Shown here piece after piece: positions 627 to 6,689 of a stretch of 64,000 nt of DNA. Position numbers and translations under genes: made by a program. The notes under the pieces are model-generated. The model had not been told where the DNA came from, searched no databases, and saw only the letters and a program-made list of their open reading frames with translations. The stretch is taken from assembly GCF_020595095.1 (NCBI RefSeq), contig NZ_JAJDOP010000010.1, forward strand, positions 1 through 64,000. Reading direction: 5' to 3'. The stretch's first letter is position 1. Every line of letters begins with the position of its first letter. Origin of the DNA: Microvirga rosea. Lineage in GTDB: Bacteria > Pseudomonadota > Alphaproteobacteria > Rhizobiales > Beijerinckiaceae.

Positions 627-1040
627 TCAGGCGGCGGCTCGCTGGTTGATCAGAAGGCCGAGACGGCGAGCCAGATTTCTTTTCGTGACAGGTCCGATCC
701 ATGGCAGGCTTGCCAGATAACCGAGCTTGTCGTTGCTCTCCCGGTAAGTGCGGAAGAAGCGTTCGCGCTCCTGCCAGATCTGATCGATCGCCTCGGCCTT
801 GCCGGGATGGCGGAAGCTCATCCTCGCGGTGGCGCCGAGCTCAAGAGCGCGGACGCAATGCTCATACGTGCGACGTCCGACGGAAGCCGTCACGCTGGCA
901 TGGCAGATGGCGAAGATCACGTGACGGGCGAGGTCCTCCGCGTTCTGGGGCGGTGCGAGACCTTTGTCGGCAAGCTCTGCCTGCGCAGCGGACCAGCCGT
1001 CGAAACCGTGAAAAGCCGAAGAGCTTGGCAATAAGTTCAC
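627..1040 (-). CDS. Helix-hairpin-helix small protein, putative DNA binding (137 aa)
   Basis: No named family is recognised. Near the C-terminus LASLPWIGPVTKRNLARRLG has the form of a helix-hairpin-helix motif (LxxLPGIGPxTAxxL), normally used for non-specific DNA binding in repair proteins; the usual hairpin PGIG is PWIG here. The frame is open upstream to 1115 with a TTG. GTG at 1040 is chosen because it overlaps the stop of the upstream gene as GTGA, the usual sign of translational coupling; the longer version would overlap that gene by 79 bases. It sits in the SOS-box-associated minus-strand operon. The function is inferred only from the motif and neighbours. Confidence 0.6.
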   Translation of the reverse strand: MNLLPSSSAFHGFDGWSAAQAELADKGLAPPQNAEDLARHVIFAICHASVTASVGRRTYEHCVRALELGATARMSFRHPGKAEAIDQIWQERERFFRTYRESNDKLGYLASLPWIGPVTKRNLARRLGLLINQRAAA

Positions 1041-1642
1041 CGTATGTTCCAGGCCGCTTGAATCATTCGGACAAGCTTCGTTCCTGTTCTGCGAATCCGG
1101 TTCGGAGCGCGCCAACCAAAAGCCGACGCTCCCGACATGTCGAAGCGAGAAGAACGAAACCGCGCGTGGGCCGAGAAGGAGCGGAGGCCTTCGGGTTCGC
1201 GCATACGCAAACTTGCGCCGGAGAGCGAAAAAGCCGCGTCGTTATTGGACTTTTCGGCATCTCTCCGCTCAACAAAGATGGGCTTTGGAACCCCGTTTTG
1301 CAAGACCGCCGACAGTGTCGGAATGTCCTCTGCGGCGGCGTTCGGGGCATGGGGCCATCCGGCGATCTCCCGTCGTGCGATGGTGAAGGTTCGTGCCAGA
1401 TCGATGTCGGCCTCGACGTGGTGAACGGCCACCGCGCAGGAAAACGCCTCGGCAAACGGGGCCATGGCGCACCAGGTCTTTTCAGCCATATGCAACGGCC
1501 AAGCCCAGAGCCCGTCTCCGCGTCTGGCGCCGAGACTCTCGCGCTCGATGAAATAGCCGTTTTCCTTATGCTCAAGCCCGCTTGGCGTTACGAGCCATTC
1601 CTCATTCTCGAACAGGGATTGTTCTTCCGCCACGGCTGCCAT
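1037..1642 (-). CDS. Hypothetical protein, first gene of the minus-strand island operon (201 aa)
   Basis: No family is recognised with confidence. The N-terminal 90 residues look like a folded domain: GLEHKENGYFIERESLGARR, then a tryptophan-rich stretch GLWAWPLHMAEKTWCAMAPF. The last third is rich in Ser, Arg and Phe and looks disordered. There are no membrane segments or signal peptide. The downstream helix-hairpin-helix gene starts inside its stop codon (GTGA), so the two are translationally coupled. An SOS box lies 72 bases upstream of the start, in the divergent region shared with the coiled-coil/Rad50/Mre11 operon. A role in DNA metabolism is inferred from context only. Confidence 0.6.
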   Translation of the reverse strand: MAAVAEEQSLFENEEWLVTPSGLEHKENGYFIERESLGARRGDGLWAWPLHMAEKTWCAMAPFAEAFSCAVAVHHVEADIDLARTFTIARREIAGWPHAPNAAAEDIPTLSAVLQNGVPKPIFVERRDAEKSNNDAAFSLSGASLRMREPEGLRSFSAHARFRSSRFDMSGASAFGWRAPNRIRRTGTKLVRMIQAAWNIR

Positions 1643-1929: not shown

Positions 1930-2226
1930 ATGACGACCCTGAAAACCCCCGGAAACGACAGCCTCAAGCGTCTCGAAGACCTGCGCACGACGTTCGAGCG
2001 GCTTCGGGCGGAGCGTATCCGGACCGAGGGTGAAGTCGAACGGCTGGTGAGGGAGCTCGATCAGGCCCGCACGCAGGCACGGGATGAATTCGGAACCGAC
2101 GACGAGGCAGAACTCCAGCGGCTGATTGAAGCAGCGGCGCGTGAAAACACCAAAAGGGTCGCCGATTTCGACGCGATTCTGCGCGATGTGGAGAACCGTC
2201 TCCGTCAGCTCGGGAGCGAGATCTGA
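1930..2226 (+). CDS. Small coiled-coil protein preceding the Rad50-like gene (98 aa)
   Basis: Almost the whole sequence is charged heptad-type helix (for example LKRLEDLRTTFERLRAERIR and then VERLVRELDQARTQARDEFG), with no globular domain, membrane segment or metal site. Its stop codon overlaps the start of the Rad50-like gene by one base (TGATG), so the two are translationally coupled and probably made in a fixed ratio. I infer that it may pair with the coiled coil of that ATPase; in ordinary Rad50 both coiled-coil strands are in one polypeptide. It could also be an unrelated scaffold. No homologue is recognised by name. Confidence 0.7.
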   Translation: MTTLKTPGNDSLKRLEDLRTTFERLRAERIRTEGEVERLVRELDQARTQARDEFGTDDEAELQRLIEAAARENTKRVADFDAILRDVENRLRQLGSEI

Positions 2227-4046
2227 TGGAGCATGGCGACAGCAACCATCAGGTAATCCGTGCGGCGGCCGCGCTGGCACGCCTCGAGGGACGTCGCGAC
2301 GCCCTCAAGGTCCGTGCCGGAGAACTGACCCGAGACATCGAACTCGCCAAGGGACGTCTCGCCGTAAAGGACGAGGTGGAAGGATTCATCGAAGCCGTTC
2401 ACGGCAGCGCCAGCCGCCGCAATGTCGCGGCCTTCGAAACCCTGCTGACGGCGCTCGTGCAGGAGGTTCTTCCCGGCGAGAAGCCTGTGGCTCTGGATCT
2501 GTCGACGGAGCGTGGCTTGGCGGCCCTCGACATTTGCGTGAAACGCCCCGACGGCAGCATGGAAGACGTGCTGGAGGACAACGGCGGCGCCCTGACCAAT
2601 GTGATCGGCATGGCCCTGCGCTTGATCGCCGTGGTGAAGGCGGATGTTGCGCGTTTTCTGGCCCTTGATGAGGCCGATTGCTGGATCGCGCCGGAGCGGG
2701 TTGCGGCGTTTTATCGCGTGCTTGAAGACGGGGCTGCGCGCCTTGGCGTTCAATGCTTGGCCGTGTCGCATCACGACTTGGCGCAGTTCTCCGGACAGTT
2801 CCATATCGCCCGCATTGCCGGCGAGCCGAGTGCCGGCGTGACGATCCAGTCCGCGGATTGCAGCGCGGCGTGGGATGATGCTGCGCCGGGACTGCGTTTC
2901 ATTCGACTTGTGAACGTTCAGGCCTATGAAGACGCCACGCTTCCTTTGGGGCCCGGAGTCAACGCGCTGATCGGTCCGAACAACCGCGGCAAGTCGACCT
3001 TCATCCGCGCGCTGCGCGCCGTGTTTTACGGTGAAGCGCGCGACAGTCTGGTGCGGGCCGGAGCCAGAGCCGCAACGGTCGAGATCGGCGTCGCCGGCAA
3101 GCGGACCTTACGCTTCACGCGCCAGCCGCGCCGCACCCCGGTCAACATTTGGTCGCTGCATGAGCCGGACGGGTCCATCGTCGAAACGGCGTCCATGCGC
3201 TACGAGACAGGCGGACGATCCGTCCCGGATTGGGTCGGCGAACTGTTCCGCATCACCAAGGTCGAGGATCTCGACGTCCACATCGCCCACCAGAAATTCC
3301 CGGTTTTTCTCTTAGGGGAACCTGCTTCGCGCCGTTCCGCCGTTCTGTCCATCGGGCAGGAGGCGAGCTACATTCGCGACATGCTCGTCATCCATCGGGA
3401 GCGCTGCGCGCGGGACAATGCGCTCGTGCGAAACGGCGAGCGGGAGCTGATCGCTCTTCGGGAGGAGCTTGACGGTTTCGGAGTTCTCGCGGCGTTGAAG
3501 GATGACCTCGGAAGAGCGCACGAACGGGCGGCCGAAATAGCGGCTACCGAACGCCGCCTTCGATCGCTTCAAAATACTCATGACCTGCTGCAAAGCCTCG
3601 CGTCCAGGGTGCGGCGGGCACAAGCGCGAGCCGATGCAACGGCGGACCTGCCTGAGCCGCAGAGCTTCGTGGCACTTGCCGGTGCGTTGCAGCGTGTCCG
3701 GGAGCGTGAGCGCATCGGGCGGGGGCTTCTGGAGACATCCGCGAGGCTTCGCGATGCGCAGGCGCGGCTGGCCTCGTTGCGGTTGCTTCCCGAAACGACT
3801 CCGGCCCTTGAAAACCCCATGCCCGCGCAAAACATTCTGAAACGCATGATCGACATTCGAAATGCCAAAGCTCAGGCGGAAGAGCGCATGATGAAGATGG
3901 ATGCGCAGGCCCGCGCCCTCCGCGACGAGATGGCCGATCTCGTCGCCTCCCATGGCGGGCTTTGCCCCACCTGCGGTTCGCCGGTGACCGCCGATACCCT
4001 TCTGGACCATCAGGCTCATGGCGCCATGGAGCGACTGACCGCATGA
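2226..4046 (+). CDS. Rad50/SbcC-type ATPase with circularly permuted domains and C-terminal zinc hook (606 aa)
   Basis: The protein contains both halves of a Rad50/SMC ABC-type ATPase head, in reverse of the usual order. Residues 10-80 are helical. A signature-like DNGGALTNVIGMALR is at about 118-132, Walker B FLALDEAD at 144-151 and an H-loop AVSHHD at 179-184, which is the normal C-terminal lobe. Walker A GPNNRGKST follows at 250-258, then a Q-loop region IAHQKFPVFLLGEPASRR near 353-370, which is the normal N-terminal lobe. Residues 380-570 are coiled coil, ending in a CPTCG zinc-hook motif (Cys580, Cys583) only 23 residues from the end. In standard Rad50 the hook is in the middle and the two lobes are the termini. 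Rad50 proteins bind DNA ends and control the Mre11 nuclease; an Mre11-like gene follows with an ATGA overlap. Confidence 0.85.
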   Translation: MEHGDSNHQVIRAAAALARLEGRRDALKVRAGELTRDIELAKGRLAVKDEVEGFIEAVHGSASRRNVAAFETLLTALVQEVLPGEKPVALDLSTERGLAALDICVKRPDGSMEDVLEDNGGALTNVIGMALRLIAVVKADVARFLALDEADCWIAPERVAAFYRVLEDGAARLGVQCLAVSHHDLAQFSGQFHIARIAGEPSAGVTIQSADCSAAWDDAAPGLRFIRLVNVQAYEDATLPLGPGVNALIGPNNRGKSTFIRALRAVFYGEARDSLVRAGARAATVEIGVAGKRTLRFTRQPRRTPVNIWSLHEPDGSIVETASMRYETGGRSVPDWVGELFRITKVEDLDVHIAHQKFPVFLLGEPASRRSAVLSIGQEASYIRDMLVIHRERCARDNALVRNGERELIALREELDGFGVLAALKDDLGRAHERAAEIAATERRLRSLQNTHDLLQSLASRVRRAQARADATADLPEPQSFVALAGALQRVRERERIGRGLLETSARLRDAQARLASLRLLPETTPALENPMPAQNILKRMIDIRNAKAQAEERMMKMDAQARALRDEMADLVASHGGLCPTCGSPVTADTLLDHQAHGAMERLTA

Positions 4047-5041
4047 TACTCTTCGGTGAACGTCTCGACACTCGCTCATGCAGTGGGCTTCTGGTCATCG
4101 GGGATCCGCATGTGGGCTCCCGCCGCCCGGGTCGCCGCAAGGACGTCCTGTGGCCTCAGCCCGTCCTGTCGAAGCTCGAACACTGCGTGGGGCTCGCCAA
4201 CGCCCGCGACCTTGCCGTCGTGATCCTGGGTGATCTGTTCGATCGTCCGGTGGAAACCGACGAAGCGCTGAAGAACCAGCTGATCCGCATTTTGAAGAGC
4301 TTCAAGCATCGCCCTGTGGTGAATGTCGGCAATCACGACATTCAGCATATGACGCTGACGGACGGTGACACCCTGGCGCTGCTGGGTCTTTGCGATGTCG
4401 TCGATGTGGTGGCGACATCGGCTCCCGTTGCCGCCTATGACATCGGCGGACGGCGGATCGGCGTCGGCATGACGCCGTTCGGGCAGACGATTCCCTCGGA
4501 CATCAGGGGCTCGTTCACGGACGTGGACTGGCAGGCTTGGTTCACCCATCACGACATCGCCTTCGATGGCGGTTATCCAGGGGCGGTGCCGCCTTTCGCC
4601 ATCGAGGCCTGTGACCTTCTCGTGAACGGTCACATCCATAAGACACAAAAGGGCATCACAGCCGGTCGGACACGCTGGCTCAACCCCGGCAACATCACGC
4701 GTCAATCCGTCGATCTGGTCGATCATGTGCCCCGCGCGTGGATCCTGGATGCCGGAGGCAACCTGAGCCCAGAGGCGTTGCCGTTCGAGGCGGACGTATT
4801 CGATCTGACGGGGCGGCTGATCGAAGCCGCCGAGGGCGCCGTGGTGGCCGAGGCGGTGGAGAGCGCCTTCGTGACGCTCCTTCAGGCGGAATCGCCGACG
4901 GAGCTGCGTCGAAGCGGCGACGGTTCGATCCTGCGCGACGAAATCGAAACCCGCTTCCACGCGGAAGAAACATCGGAGGTCGTCCGCGCCATCGTCCGCT
5001 CGCTCCTGGGTGAAGCGGTGGAGCGGCACGCCCGCTCCTGA
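4043..5041 (+). CDS. Mre11/SbcD-type metallophosphoesterase nuclease (332 aa)
   Basis: The calcineurin-like phosphoesterase motifs of Mre11/SbcD are all visible: GDPHVGS (Asp21, His23), GDLFDR (Asp64), GNHD (Asn97, His98), a THHD near the middle and NGHIHK, followed by LNPGN. Such enzymes are two-metal exo/endonucleases that work with Rad50 at DNA ends. ATG at 4043 is chosen because it overlaps the Rad50-like stop as ATGA; upstream in-frame codons would run deep into that gene. The last 110 residues (ESAFVTLLQAESPTELRRSG onwards) are probably the partner-binding cap region. The catalytic set is complete, so an active nuclease is expected. Target and direction of digestion cannot be read from sequence. 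Confidence 0.88.
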   Translation: MILFGERLDTRSCSGLLVIGDPHVGSRRPGRRKDVLWPQPVLSKLEHCVGLANARDLAVVILGDLFDRPVETDEALKNQLIRILKSFKHRPVVNVGNHDIQHMTLTDGDTLALLGLCDVVDVVATSAPVAAYDIGGRRIGVGMTPFGQTIPSDIRGSFTDVDWQAWFTHHDIAFDGGYPGAVPPFAIEACDLLVNGHIHKTQKGITAGRTRWLNPGNITRQSVDLVDHVPRAWILDAGGNLSPEALPFEADVFDLTGRLIEAAEGAVVAEAVESAFVTLLQAESPTELRRSGDGSILRDEIETRFHAEETSEVVRAIVRSLLGEAVERHARS

Positions 5042-5045
5042 GCGC

Positions 5046-5693
5046 TCAGAACCCGAAGGGATCCGAATAGGGGAGGCGGCGGCGGCGCACGGGCGTCTCG
5101 GGCAGAATCGGGCGACTGATGTCCACGGCGATCAAGCCTTCGCAGGCAAGCGACAACACCGCCGCGACCCCATCCGCCGCGTTGGTGGCGCCCCCCGCGC
5201 AATCGACGAGCCGCATCGTTCCGCACTCGTCGAGCTGGTGCAGGATCCTCACCCGGTCACCTGCGGTGACGAGGGTACGCCTGCAGGCCATGATCAGACG
5301 AACTGTCGTGAAGCGCGGCTCGGCGCGGATGGTGGCGACGGTCTCGAACGCGAATGCACGCCCATCCTCCGCGGATAGGCCGCCGAAAGTTGCCGCGCGC
5401 AACGGGTGATTGGCAAGGTCCTCGTCGGTCACGATGTCGACGAGGCAGGGATGTCCATCGCGAACGATCTCGAAATCGGCCGCATGCTCCACGATCTCGT
5501 CGCCCACGTTGAAGTGGGCCATGGGCGCCGGCGCCTGCAAAGCTTCAATCTCAGGATCCAGCTCGCAGATGGCGAGGAAGTCCGCAACCAGCGACGGCCT
5601 CGTCGTCGGCGTACCGGAGGGTCTGCGGGCACGTCTGGAGCCGGCACGCACGGAGCGCCGTGGGGCGATATCGAGCAGAGCTTGTGCGGACAA
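5046..5693 (-). CDS. Hypothetical protein resembling TnsA-type endonuclease, catalytic residues degenerate (215 aa)
   Basis: The core pattern FLAICELDPEIEALQAPAP, then HAADFEIVRDGHPCLVDIV, resembles the N-terminal domain of TnsA-like PD-(D/E)XK endonucleases (xLExDPxVxxFxxQP ... PDFxVxxxGxxxLVEVK). The first Asp is present (ADF), but the E-x-K pair is replaced by D-x-V and the usual early Glu is missing. It is therefore probably not an active nuclease of that type. An Arg-rich N-terminus (about residues 12-30) and C-terminus could bind nucleic acid. It is convergent with the Mre11-like gene (4-base gap) and has an SOS box 64 bases upstream of its start. The family assignment is tentative. Confidence 0.5.
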   Translation of the reverse strand: MSAQALLDIAPRRSVRAGSRRARRPSGTPTTRPSLVADFLAICELDPEIEALQAPAPMAHFNVGDEIVEHAADFEIVRDGHPCLVDIVTDEDLANHPLRAATFGGLSAEDGRAFAFETVATIRAEPRFTTVRLIMACRRTLVTAGDRVRILHQLDECGTMRLVDCAGGATNAADGVAAVLSLACEGLIAVDISRPILPETPVRRRRLPYSDPFGF

Positions 5694-6038: not shown

Positions 6039-6689
6039 ATGAACAGTACTGACAAGAAAATCGCCGAGGTCCTGGCAAAATTCGGCGAGCCGATGGCCGG
6101 CAACGTTTGGCGCGTCCAGGGAACCGCCGTGATCTATCACAAGGCGCTGGAGCGCATCGCCGCGCAGGCTGCCATTCAGTTCGAGCCGCCGACCATCGTG
6201 CGTGCAGAGCGCGACGAAGCCGTCATCCTGGTGACGGGCCGTATGGGCGAGCGCCTTGAATGGTCGATCGGCGAAGCTCTGGTCGGCACCAATTATCGCG
6301 TCTCCGGCAAGCAGGCCGCCTACGTCTACGCCATGGCGGAAAAGCGCGCGAAGGACCGCGTCATCCTCAAGCTGATCGAGCTTCATGGTCTCGTTTATTC
6401 CGAAGAAGAGGCGGATGAGTTCAAGAACAGCCGGCCGCTTCCGCCGGAGCAGCAGGTCGAGGGTGAGAAAACCGTCGTCGAGATCGTCGCGCCCGACAAT
6501 CAGGTGGAAGCGGAGCTGAAGCAGAAAATCAGCAAGGCCAAGACCATCAACGCCGTGACCGACTTGATGCTGAACCCGGACACGCAGCGCGTGCTGAACG
6601 ATCTGCCCGAGGGCATCCGTGACGAGGTGCGCGACTTCGCCAAGGCGCGTCTCGTGGAGCTCGGCTGGCCTTCGAAGAAGGCTGCGTAA
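6039..6689 (+). CDS. Phage-type protein, possible single-strand annealing/recombination protein (216 aa)
   Basis: The protein carries a conserved block seen in phage recombination regions: WRVQGTAVIYHKALERIAAQ near residues 23-42, EWSIGEA near 78, then YAMAEKRAKDRVILKLIELH and VYSEEEADEFK near 105-135. The YxMAEKRAxDRxxLKL helix resembles that of Erf/Rad52/Sak-type single-strand annealing proteins. I infer, but cannot prove, that it anneals single-stranded DNA. The C-terminal 80 residues are charged and helical, possibly a partner-binding tail. It is a single-gene transcript with an SOS-box promoter upstream and a strong terminator directly after it. SSB and the Rad50/Mre11-like genes nearby fit a recombination role. 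Confidence 0.6.
   Translation: MNSTDKKIAEVLAKFGEPMAGNVWRVQGTAVIYHKALERIAAQAAIQFEPPTIVRAERDEAVILVTGRMGERLEWSIGEALVGTNYRVSGKQAAYVYAMAEKRAKDRVILKLIELHGLVYSEEEADEFKNSRPLPPEQQVEGEKTVVEIVAPDNQVEAELKQKISKAKTINAVTDLMLNPDTQRVLNDLPEGIRDEVRDFAKARLVELGWPSKKAA

Follow-up and report, generated by a model that had tools for sequence, protein, structure and literature searches.

Known Mre11-Rad50 systems and the window locus

Canonical Rad50/SbcC ATPases carry the order N-lobe, arm, hook, arm and C-lobe in a single chain. Likewise, the T4 and SPN3US SbcC proteins are described, in the available excerpt of PMC5105663, as one chain with Walker A at its N terminus and the signature and Walker B motifs at its C terminus. 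Mimivirus R555 and other fusion proteins combine an N-terminal Mre11-like with a C-terminal Rad50-like domain, and protein A7KV18 of Bacillus phage 0305phi8-36 lacks one P-loop NTPase segment (both from the available part of PMC3175470). In this study, a 64,000-nucleotide stretch of Microvirga rosea (RefSeq assembly GCF_020595095.1, contig NZ_JAJDOP010000010.1, positions 1 to 64,000; the window) was analysed. It holds three same-strand genes with overlapping ends, encoding a small protein of 98 amino acids (aa), a 606-aa ATPase and a 332-aa phosphoesterase. Sequence and model comparisons confirm the ATPase as a circularly permuted Rad50-type protein, as had been proposed from the letters of this DNA alone (the original prediction). 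With a probability that we put at roughly 0.8, the three genes specify a complex of the Mre11-Rad50 kind that processes DNA ends in an ATP-dependent way and contains a re-wired Rad50.

The system shares with Rad50/SbcC homology to the N- and C-lobes, a CPxC hook sequence and an Mre11-type nuclease partner. It differs in that the C-lobe precedes the N-lobe, the hook is C-terminal, an HxH follows the CPxC, the arm comes in units of about 40 residues and an extra small subunit is encoded in the window. The signature serine is absent from all 15 and from 30 of 31 sequences in two ATPase alignments (A1 and A2, respectively). Because chain order, hook position, signature serine and scores against the model cut-offs all departed from canonical Rad50 when tested, the protein was not filed as such. 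The nuclease resembles Mre11/SbcD in its phosphodiesterase fold (Z up to 22.5) and its metal-binding and catalytic residues, and differs from it in being divergent (17.6 versus 77.65 bits), in its short C-terminal helices and perhaps in its capping domain, which is not evident.

Like the Mre11/Rad50 fusions, this is a case of re-wired Mre11-Rad50 genes on plasmids and in viruses; for those fusions, the available part of PMC3175470 describes neither a permutation nor a separate C-lobe gene. The T4-like gp46/gp47 and jumbo-phage SbcCD proteins, as presented in excerpts of PMC7824862 and PMC5105663, are also phage end-processing complexes for recombination. A7KV18 was the best fold match of the ATPase model in BFVD (E 3.8e-12). 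No description of a permuted or split Rad50 was found in the open-licence PMC literature (subscription papers and preprints fell outside this scope), in line with the novelty that the original prediction had claimed for the layout.

Both larger open reading frames (ORFs) and their ATGA overlap are present as originally predicted; the third gene, whose TGA shares one base with the ATPase ATG, had been overlooked. In window positions, the features of the operon are as follows.

1930..2226, plus strand: small helical subunit gene, 98 aa (ORF, alignment A3 and hidden Markov model [HMM])
2226..4046, plus strand: circularly permuted Rad50-type ATPase, 606 aa (alignments, AlphaFold2 model, profiles)
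2232..2468, plus strand: ATPase residues 3-81, two helices leading into the C-lobe (DSSP of the AlphaFold2 model)
2487..2852, plus strand: ATPase C-lobe, residues 88-209 (profile A5 against Rad50 C-half chain 3qkr_B)
Within the C-lobe, plus strand: signature-like NGG, residues 119-121; Walker B, 144-149 (2655-2672); H-loop, 181-183 (2766-2774)
2886..3359, plus strand: ATPase N-lobe, residues 221-378 (Z 10.5 to 1f2u_C; profile A2)
Within the N-lobe, plus strand: Walker A, residues 250-257 (2973-2996); Q-loop Q356 (3291-3293)
3360..3950, plus strand: ascending arm, residues 379-575 (helices 379-472, 478-519 and 532-575, with Leu-Pro breaks between)
3963..4019, plus strand: terminal putative zinc motif, CPTC 580-583 followed by H595 and H598 (conservation and profile matches)
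4043..5041, plus strand: Mre11-type nuclease, 332 aa (core residues 12-262; C-terminal helices 295-307 and 312-331)

The permuted ATPase

The motifs of both lobes and of the hook were located as GG (residues 120-121), FLALDE (144-149), SHH (181-183), GPNNRGKS (250-257), Q356 and CPTCG (580-584). These are the places at which the original prediction had put the signature-like, Walker B, H-loop, Walker A, Q-loop and hook segments, and the alignments of 15 and 31 sequences show little or no variation at their key residues. A C-lobe profile (A5; residues ~22-200, built from 16 permuted and 3 split sequences) had the C-half of Pyrococcus furiosus Rad50 (3qkr_B) as its best match among PDB sequences (E 6.9e-7), and the top 12 matches were all Rad50 or SMC. 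The alignment joins profile positions 10-175 (of 178) to residues 3-166 of 3qkr_B, so that the expected correspondence to a Rad50 C-lobe holds over nearly the whole length of residues ~22-200, with the SGG of the Rad50 C-half opposite the NGG of the window protein.

The later part of the chain likewise aligned with N-lobe and hook, as anticipated. In the whole-protein profile (A2), residues 223-290 matched the Rad50 N terminus (E 3.5e-9), and residues 540-603 and 548-603 matched Rad50 chains 6zff (1.5e-4) and 1l8d (3.7e-3), which we take to be hook structures. An AlphaFold2 model built on the 31 sequences had a mean predicted local distance difference test score (pLDDT) of 85.9, and its residues 221-364 superimposed on the Rad50 N-lobe 1f2u_C with a Z of 10.5 and a root-mean-square deviation of 2.7 over 134 residues. 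Foldseek returned three matches in all at E<=0.001, two of them from the P. furiosus Mre11-Rad50 structure 9a9j (chains A and B); chain A is the N-lobe match in the structure comparison, and chain B is, judging by its length, presumably the Rad50 C-part. VIA rows over the long helices (V-ATPase, dynein, condensin) were left out of the evidence.

Because the profile and structure matches fall in these segments, the chain reads C-lobe (88-209), N-lobe (221-378), ascending arm, CPTC (580-583) and end. The new termini had been placed near the hook; this is right for the C terminus, which lies at the hook, and wrong for the N terminus, which lies ~80 residues out from the C-lobe, against ~200 residues for the ascending arm. 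An assembly error or a frameshift joining two genes can be set aside, since the gene has no internal stops and the same order recurs across genomes of three proteobacterial classes. The best NCBIfam match of the N-lobe, archaea-specific SMC-related protein (ASRP), scored 51.8 bits (E 5.2e-14), yet far below its cut-off of 300, and the Rad50 equivalog models scored 18.3-31.5 bits against cut-offs of 700-1087. Loss of the signature serine may mean that ATP contacts or the geometry of the ATP dimer differ from those of Rad50.

Nuclease and small helical subunit

Assignment of the 332-aa protein to the Mre11 type, made in the original prediction, is borne out by its fold and catalytic residues. 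D21, H23, D64, H98, H169, H197 and H199 are invariant in 22 nuclease sequences, and the top 39 VIA rows of the nuclease model are all Mre11/SbcD (Z 18.6-22.5, model residues about 11-263). Mre11/SbcD chains also lead the matches of the nuclease profile against the PDB, and the SbcD-like PHROG family matches at E 3.9e-8.

The third protein consists, by sequence, of two helices of ~38-40 residues around a conserved [FY]GTxD turn, with G55 conserved at >=90% in alignment A3. Every complete permuted locus has an ORF directly upstream of the ATPase gene. An HMM built from 10 Hyphomicrobiales sequences was run on the 2460 ORFs of 31 other loci (26 bacterial and 5 phage, some closely related to one another). 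In each of the 26 bacterial loci its top hit was the ORF that precedes the ATPase or C-lobe gene, with E<1e-3 in 23 and weaker matches in the remaining three (L033, L034 and L042). No match was obtained in the five phage loci in this stricter search; at a cut-off of 0.01, 14 of 27 viral contigs gave matches with weak E values. Alignment A3 returned unspecific helical matches only against the PDB. Overall, this is a predicted third subunit, conserved and co-encoded with the ATPase and the nuclease. As a candidate for the complete descending arm it was weakened, its core being near-constant in length in A3 (except for short insertions in L042 and L113) while the arm spans 155-266 residues.

Arm and terminal tip

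Canonical hooks are formed by two CxxC motifs joined in trans, at the apex between two arms. In the permuted proteins, C580 and C583 are invariant in both ATPase alignments, and in 31 of 31 sequences of A2 the CxxC lies 8-28 residues from the C terminus with no second arm behind it. The tails that follow are rich in histidine (13% of tail residues versus 2.5% overall): after the CxxC, H-x(1-5)-H occurs in 66 of 71 distinct C-terminal tails, and 70 contain at least one His. The split forms described below show H-x(0-5)-H in 13 of 23 distinct tails. This pattern suggests that the CPxC...HxH tip binds zinc, possibly as a CCHH site closed in cis.

Arm length in A2 varies from 155 to 266 residues. 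The Hyphomicrobiales rows have arms of 155/159, 195 and 234/235 residues, that is, steps of about 40 residues between close relatives, and self-similarity of the arm is highest at an offset of 40 (24.8 versus a median of 4.1). Across 38 distinct lengths from 144 rows, with kinship ignored and some outliers (e.g., 412-570) from extrapolated or unusual frames, the best period was 38 (R 0.44), a value that 25 of 2000 random sets attained when all periods of 20-60 were allowed. Sequence lengths thus give modest support to a non-random periodicity of ~40 residues.

A more far-reaching and rather doubtful proposal is an open-hook Rad50 with a modular arm, in which the small-subunit hairpin helps to build the arm, the tip zinc site switches from cis to trans and the split operons of phages and of another bacterial phylum are ancestral. 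With a chain that ends at its tip, such an arm could gain or lose ~40-residue helix units and need no matching change in a return strand. Each ~40-residue unit could form a three-helix bundle with one ~40+40-residue hairpin, so that the number of hairpin copies would equal the number of units. The zinc site, closed in cis, may open to join in trans, which would make the complex a DNA clamp that opens at the apex.

Distribution and gene neighbourhood

A search of 61 genomes, that of the window among them, recovered the ATPase gene free of internal stops in 33, all of which belong to Microvirga (33 of 37). It is near full length in 32 of these and a 60-residue piece on a short contig in the other. 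Twenty-one plasmid records also hold the gene (Bosea, Methylorubrum, Rhizobium, Acidiphilium, Variovorax, Pseudomonas, Vibrio, Aeromonas and Alteromonas). All 21 plasmids are predicted to be non-mobilizable, the cassette sits on megaplasmids, and a CxxC lies near the ATPase C terminus in all 13 records that were fetched. In the genome contig collection, 57 of 62 loci have the terminal CxxC on the matching ORF; three of the other five are cut by a contig end and two (L108 and L109) have only the C-lobe on the matching ORF. The search for homologues of the same order suggested in the original prediction therefore turned up the permuted form in many genomes of three proteobacterial classes. The family nevertheless appears sporadic outside Microvirga and Methylobacterium, because the C-lobe profile at E<=1e-10 found only 2 of 398 in an even Pseudomonadota sample, one of them the window itself.

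Flanking genes are common to Microvirga and Methylobacterium loci. In the window, the conserved neighbours are as follows.

627..1115, minus strand: 162 aa, weak OGG-like match (E 7.9e-7), in 34 of 66 loci
1037..1642, minus strand: 201 aa, divergent, no Pfam or PADLOC match, in 49 of 66 loci
5046..5693, minus strand: 215 aa, no convincing family in Pfam, NCBIfam or PHROG, in 43 of 66 loci
6039..6689, plus strand: 216 aa, no Pfam, NCBIfam or PHROG match, in 43 of 66 loci; up to 92% identity in relatives

On plasmids, a recombination gene was present near the permuted gene in 8 of 10 annotated stretches (three further records, outside these 10, carry no annotation at the locus). The neighbours were an ATP-dependent or UvrD helicase (three stretches), RecQ (three), RdgC (two), RecJ (one) and LigD (one). 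This context favours DNA-end processing rather than defence.

The window genome has no SbcC or SbcD above the curated cut-off, a test that is weak for SbcC because the control passes in 1 of 14 genomes only (8 of 14 for SbcD). Its sub-threshold SbcD match (C3:17154) is a 339-aa ORF beside transporter-like genes, which on inspection by eye reads as another phosphodiesterase. SbcD exceeded the cut-off in 0 of 37 Microvirga genomes and in 5 of 24 others, and 11 Microvirga genomes had sub-cut-off matches of 45-62 bits, so that further Mre11-like proteins may be present.

Several loci in Microvirga deviate from the common form. One relative has a second, divergent permuted copy of 826 aa (31-34% identity; L044, G008:C33:232000-241000). 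In Microvirga lupini Lut6 (L065, L024), the nuclease gene, perhaps broken, yielded only a 215-aa frame displaced downstream. In 17 of the 32 near-full-length genomes, as in the window, the ATPase gene lies <10 kb from a contig end; short contigs raise this closeness by chance, and a nearby repeat is possible.

Split relatives and origin of the permutation

In locus L108 (L108:1537-4570), the same parts are encoded by separate genes: N-lobe, arm and CPTC (371 aa), Mre11, a small protein and a C-lobe (230 aa). The small protein is 41% identical to the 98-aa protein of the window. Within the phylum of L108, presumably one other than Pseudomonadota, 10 of 294 genomes (that of L108 included) have a strong C-lobe match (E<=1.4e-46, frames of 234-258 aa), and all 10 loci fetched have the order N-lobe/hook, Mre11, small protein, C-lobe; L108 and L163-L172 are split operons of this phylum. 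At E<=1e-8, 27 of the 294 genomes pass; the other 17 (E 2.3e-10 to 8.9e-9), 15 with frames of >1200 aa and two with frames of 524 and 742 aa, were taken as SMC-like or unclear and were not counted. The megaplasmid pB6464 of Alkaliphilus, a member of the Clostridia (L177:1928-5447), carries Mre11, an N-lobe protein that ends soon after a CPLC, a small protein of 91 aa (E 8.9e-5 when four proteins were searched) and a C-lobe of 225 aa. The annotations there read AAA family ATPase, metallophosphoesterase and hypothetical.

Phages carry a split form as well. A search with gp35, the C-lobe protein of Bacillus phage vB_BboS-125, retrieved 27 viral contigs (that phage included), all with N-lobe/hook, C-lobe and Mre11 in this order. 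The position of the Mre11 gene varies between split groups. Viral scans with the window ATPase, alignment A1, the L108 C-lobe or the L108 N-lobe gave no relatives, and tblastn of the window ATPase had no match in the phage collection. In vB_BboS-125, gp32 and gp35 are the two Rad50 halves, and an unannotated 326-aa Mre11-like ORF lies between gp36 and gp37 (L110:9253-10233). In Microbacterium phage Magritte, the C-lobe gene (L111:284-934, annotated as an exonuclease) is ~93 kb from the N-lobe gene (L112:4001-5053). Tunturiibacter phage Tunturi_5 (L113:3947-7947) combines an SbcD gene and a helical ORF of 97 aa with an N-lobe that carries CGKC at its end; no C-lobe gene was found in the stretch fetched. 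BFVD entries A0A516LLJ5 (338 aa) and A0A516LLJ2 (193 aa), near-consecutive accessions that both match the ATPase model, may be the two halves of a Rad50 from a single phage.

A tree built on both lobes (40 taxa, 372 columns) groups the permuted proteins in one clade with ultrafast bootstrap support of 99, and the bacterial and the phage split forms each in a clade with support of 100. With midpoint rooting, the split state comes first and split forms lie on either side of the root. The permuted Rad50 is thus best read, from these comparisons, as a gene-level C-to-N fusion of a split Rad50, a form still found elsewhere, and a single fusion of C-lobe to N-lobe after gene reordering is most likely, being the simplest history. 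In such a history, the small-protein and C-lobe genes of a split operon would have moved upstream of the N-lobe-hook gene, after which C-lobe and N-lobe would have fused.

Tandem duplication is a well-known route to circular permutation, and a canonical Rad50 could have been permuted directly by duplication and trimming of one gene, with the split forms as later, independent breakages. The root of the tree, which is not fixed by an outgroup, leaves room for this history. We consider it rather unlikely, however, as the hook-terminal architecture is common to split and permuted forms, as is the small subunit beside the C-lobe gene (in the bacterial split forms and the Alkaliphilus plasmid; weakly in phages), and as the midpoint root has split forms on both sides and the permuted forms in one clade.

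Proposed function

The complex likely works like Mre11-Rad50, and its role in DNA-end processing is the function we infer. Because each head is a complete pair of N- and C-lobe whose natural ends are merely joined, two ATPase chains would dimerise on ATP through the usual head surfaces. Residues 3-81, as the proximal descending arm, would pair with residues 379-~460 in a proximal coiled coil, and the small subunit would make up, wholly or partly, for the distal descending arm that is missing. The terminal motif would bind zinc and tether two arms or cap one. ATP hydrolysis at the heads would gate the Mre11 dimer at their base, such that DNA ends are trimmed or nicked for recombinational repair.

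Several observations weigh against this reading. The predicted template modelling score of the ATPase model (0.58) leaves the path of the arm uncertain, and VIA rows spanning helices 1-473 include V-ATPase and dynein, so that coiled-coil matches are unspecific. The serine before the GG is retained in a single sequence of A2 and is N in the window protein. For the nuclease, the best NCBIfam match was PdeM (24.2 bits, cut-off 150), ahead of SbcD (TIGR00619, 17.6 bits), both far below cut-off; no capping domain is evident in its model, and in the part where this domain and the helix-loop-helix (HLH) Rad50-binding domain were looked for, residues 259-291 have pLDDT<50 and are followed by the two terminal helices. 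The near-constant core of the small subunit is unlike a simple full-length partner of a variable arm. Finally, 2 of 10 annotated plasmid neighbourhoods have no repair gene, and the midpoint root of the tree is an assumption made with no outgroup.

An SMC-like defence system, in which the ATPase would sense foreign or broken DNA and the phosphoesterase would act as an anti-phage effector in the manner of Lamassu or Gabija, is improbable. The N-lobe does match PADLOC models (Mad3, 34.0 bits; LmuB, 33.1; GajA, 29; E 5.8e-9 to 1e-7) about as well as single Rad50 models (<=31.5 bits), and megaplasmids are where the cassette sits. However, these matches cover mainly the generic P-loop region (among the best 25 of 57), the first LmuB model spanning residues 237-590, and ASRP outscores them all. 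No specific full-length PADLOC match of ATPase plus effector was found, and the nuclease had no PADLOC match up to E 0.1. The presence of the cassette with shared flanks in nearly all Microvirga genomes is unlike that of a turnover-prone defence gene, repair genes accompany most annotated plasmid copies, and the split form is itself found in phages related to vB_BboS-125.

A chance fusion of unrelated half-genes, a generic ABC C-lobe and a Rad50-like N-lobe with no working head, is very improbable: single-sequence searches detect the C-lobe weakly and find mainly the N-lobe, and the Tunturi_5 stretch breaks the co-occurrence of the lobes, but Walker B, H-loop, Walker A and Q-loop are strongly conserved together, the C-lobe profile matches Rad50 first, and both lobes occur as a fusion in complete permuted loci and on separate ORFs in the split loci (10 of 10 bacterial, 27 of 27 viral).

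Implications for the Mre11-Rad50 family

An Mre11-Rad50-type complex with a re-wired Rad50 would give a name and a partner to genes annotated as AAA family ATPase, exonuclease or hypothetical. It would also help to explain the Bacillus phage protein, described in 2011, in which half of Rad50 is missing (PMC3175470, available part); a separate C-lobe gene is proposed for that phage. In models of Rad50 and SMC proteins, ATP signals are assumed to pass along one continuous antiparallel arm towards a hook or hinge that is closed. Here the arm is cut at the hook, part of it has apparently moved to another protein, and the ends of the head are fused the other way, probably once; this layout has been kept in three proteobacterial classes and on megaplasmids. 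The split, permuted and arm-varied forms make up a natural set that could be used to test which connections are needed for tethering, clamping and nuclease gating, and the layout itself could test whether the long arm of Rad50 needs one continuous chain.

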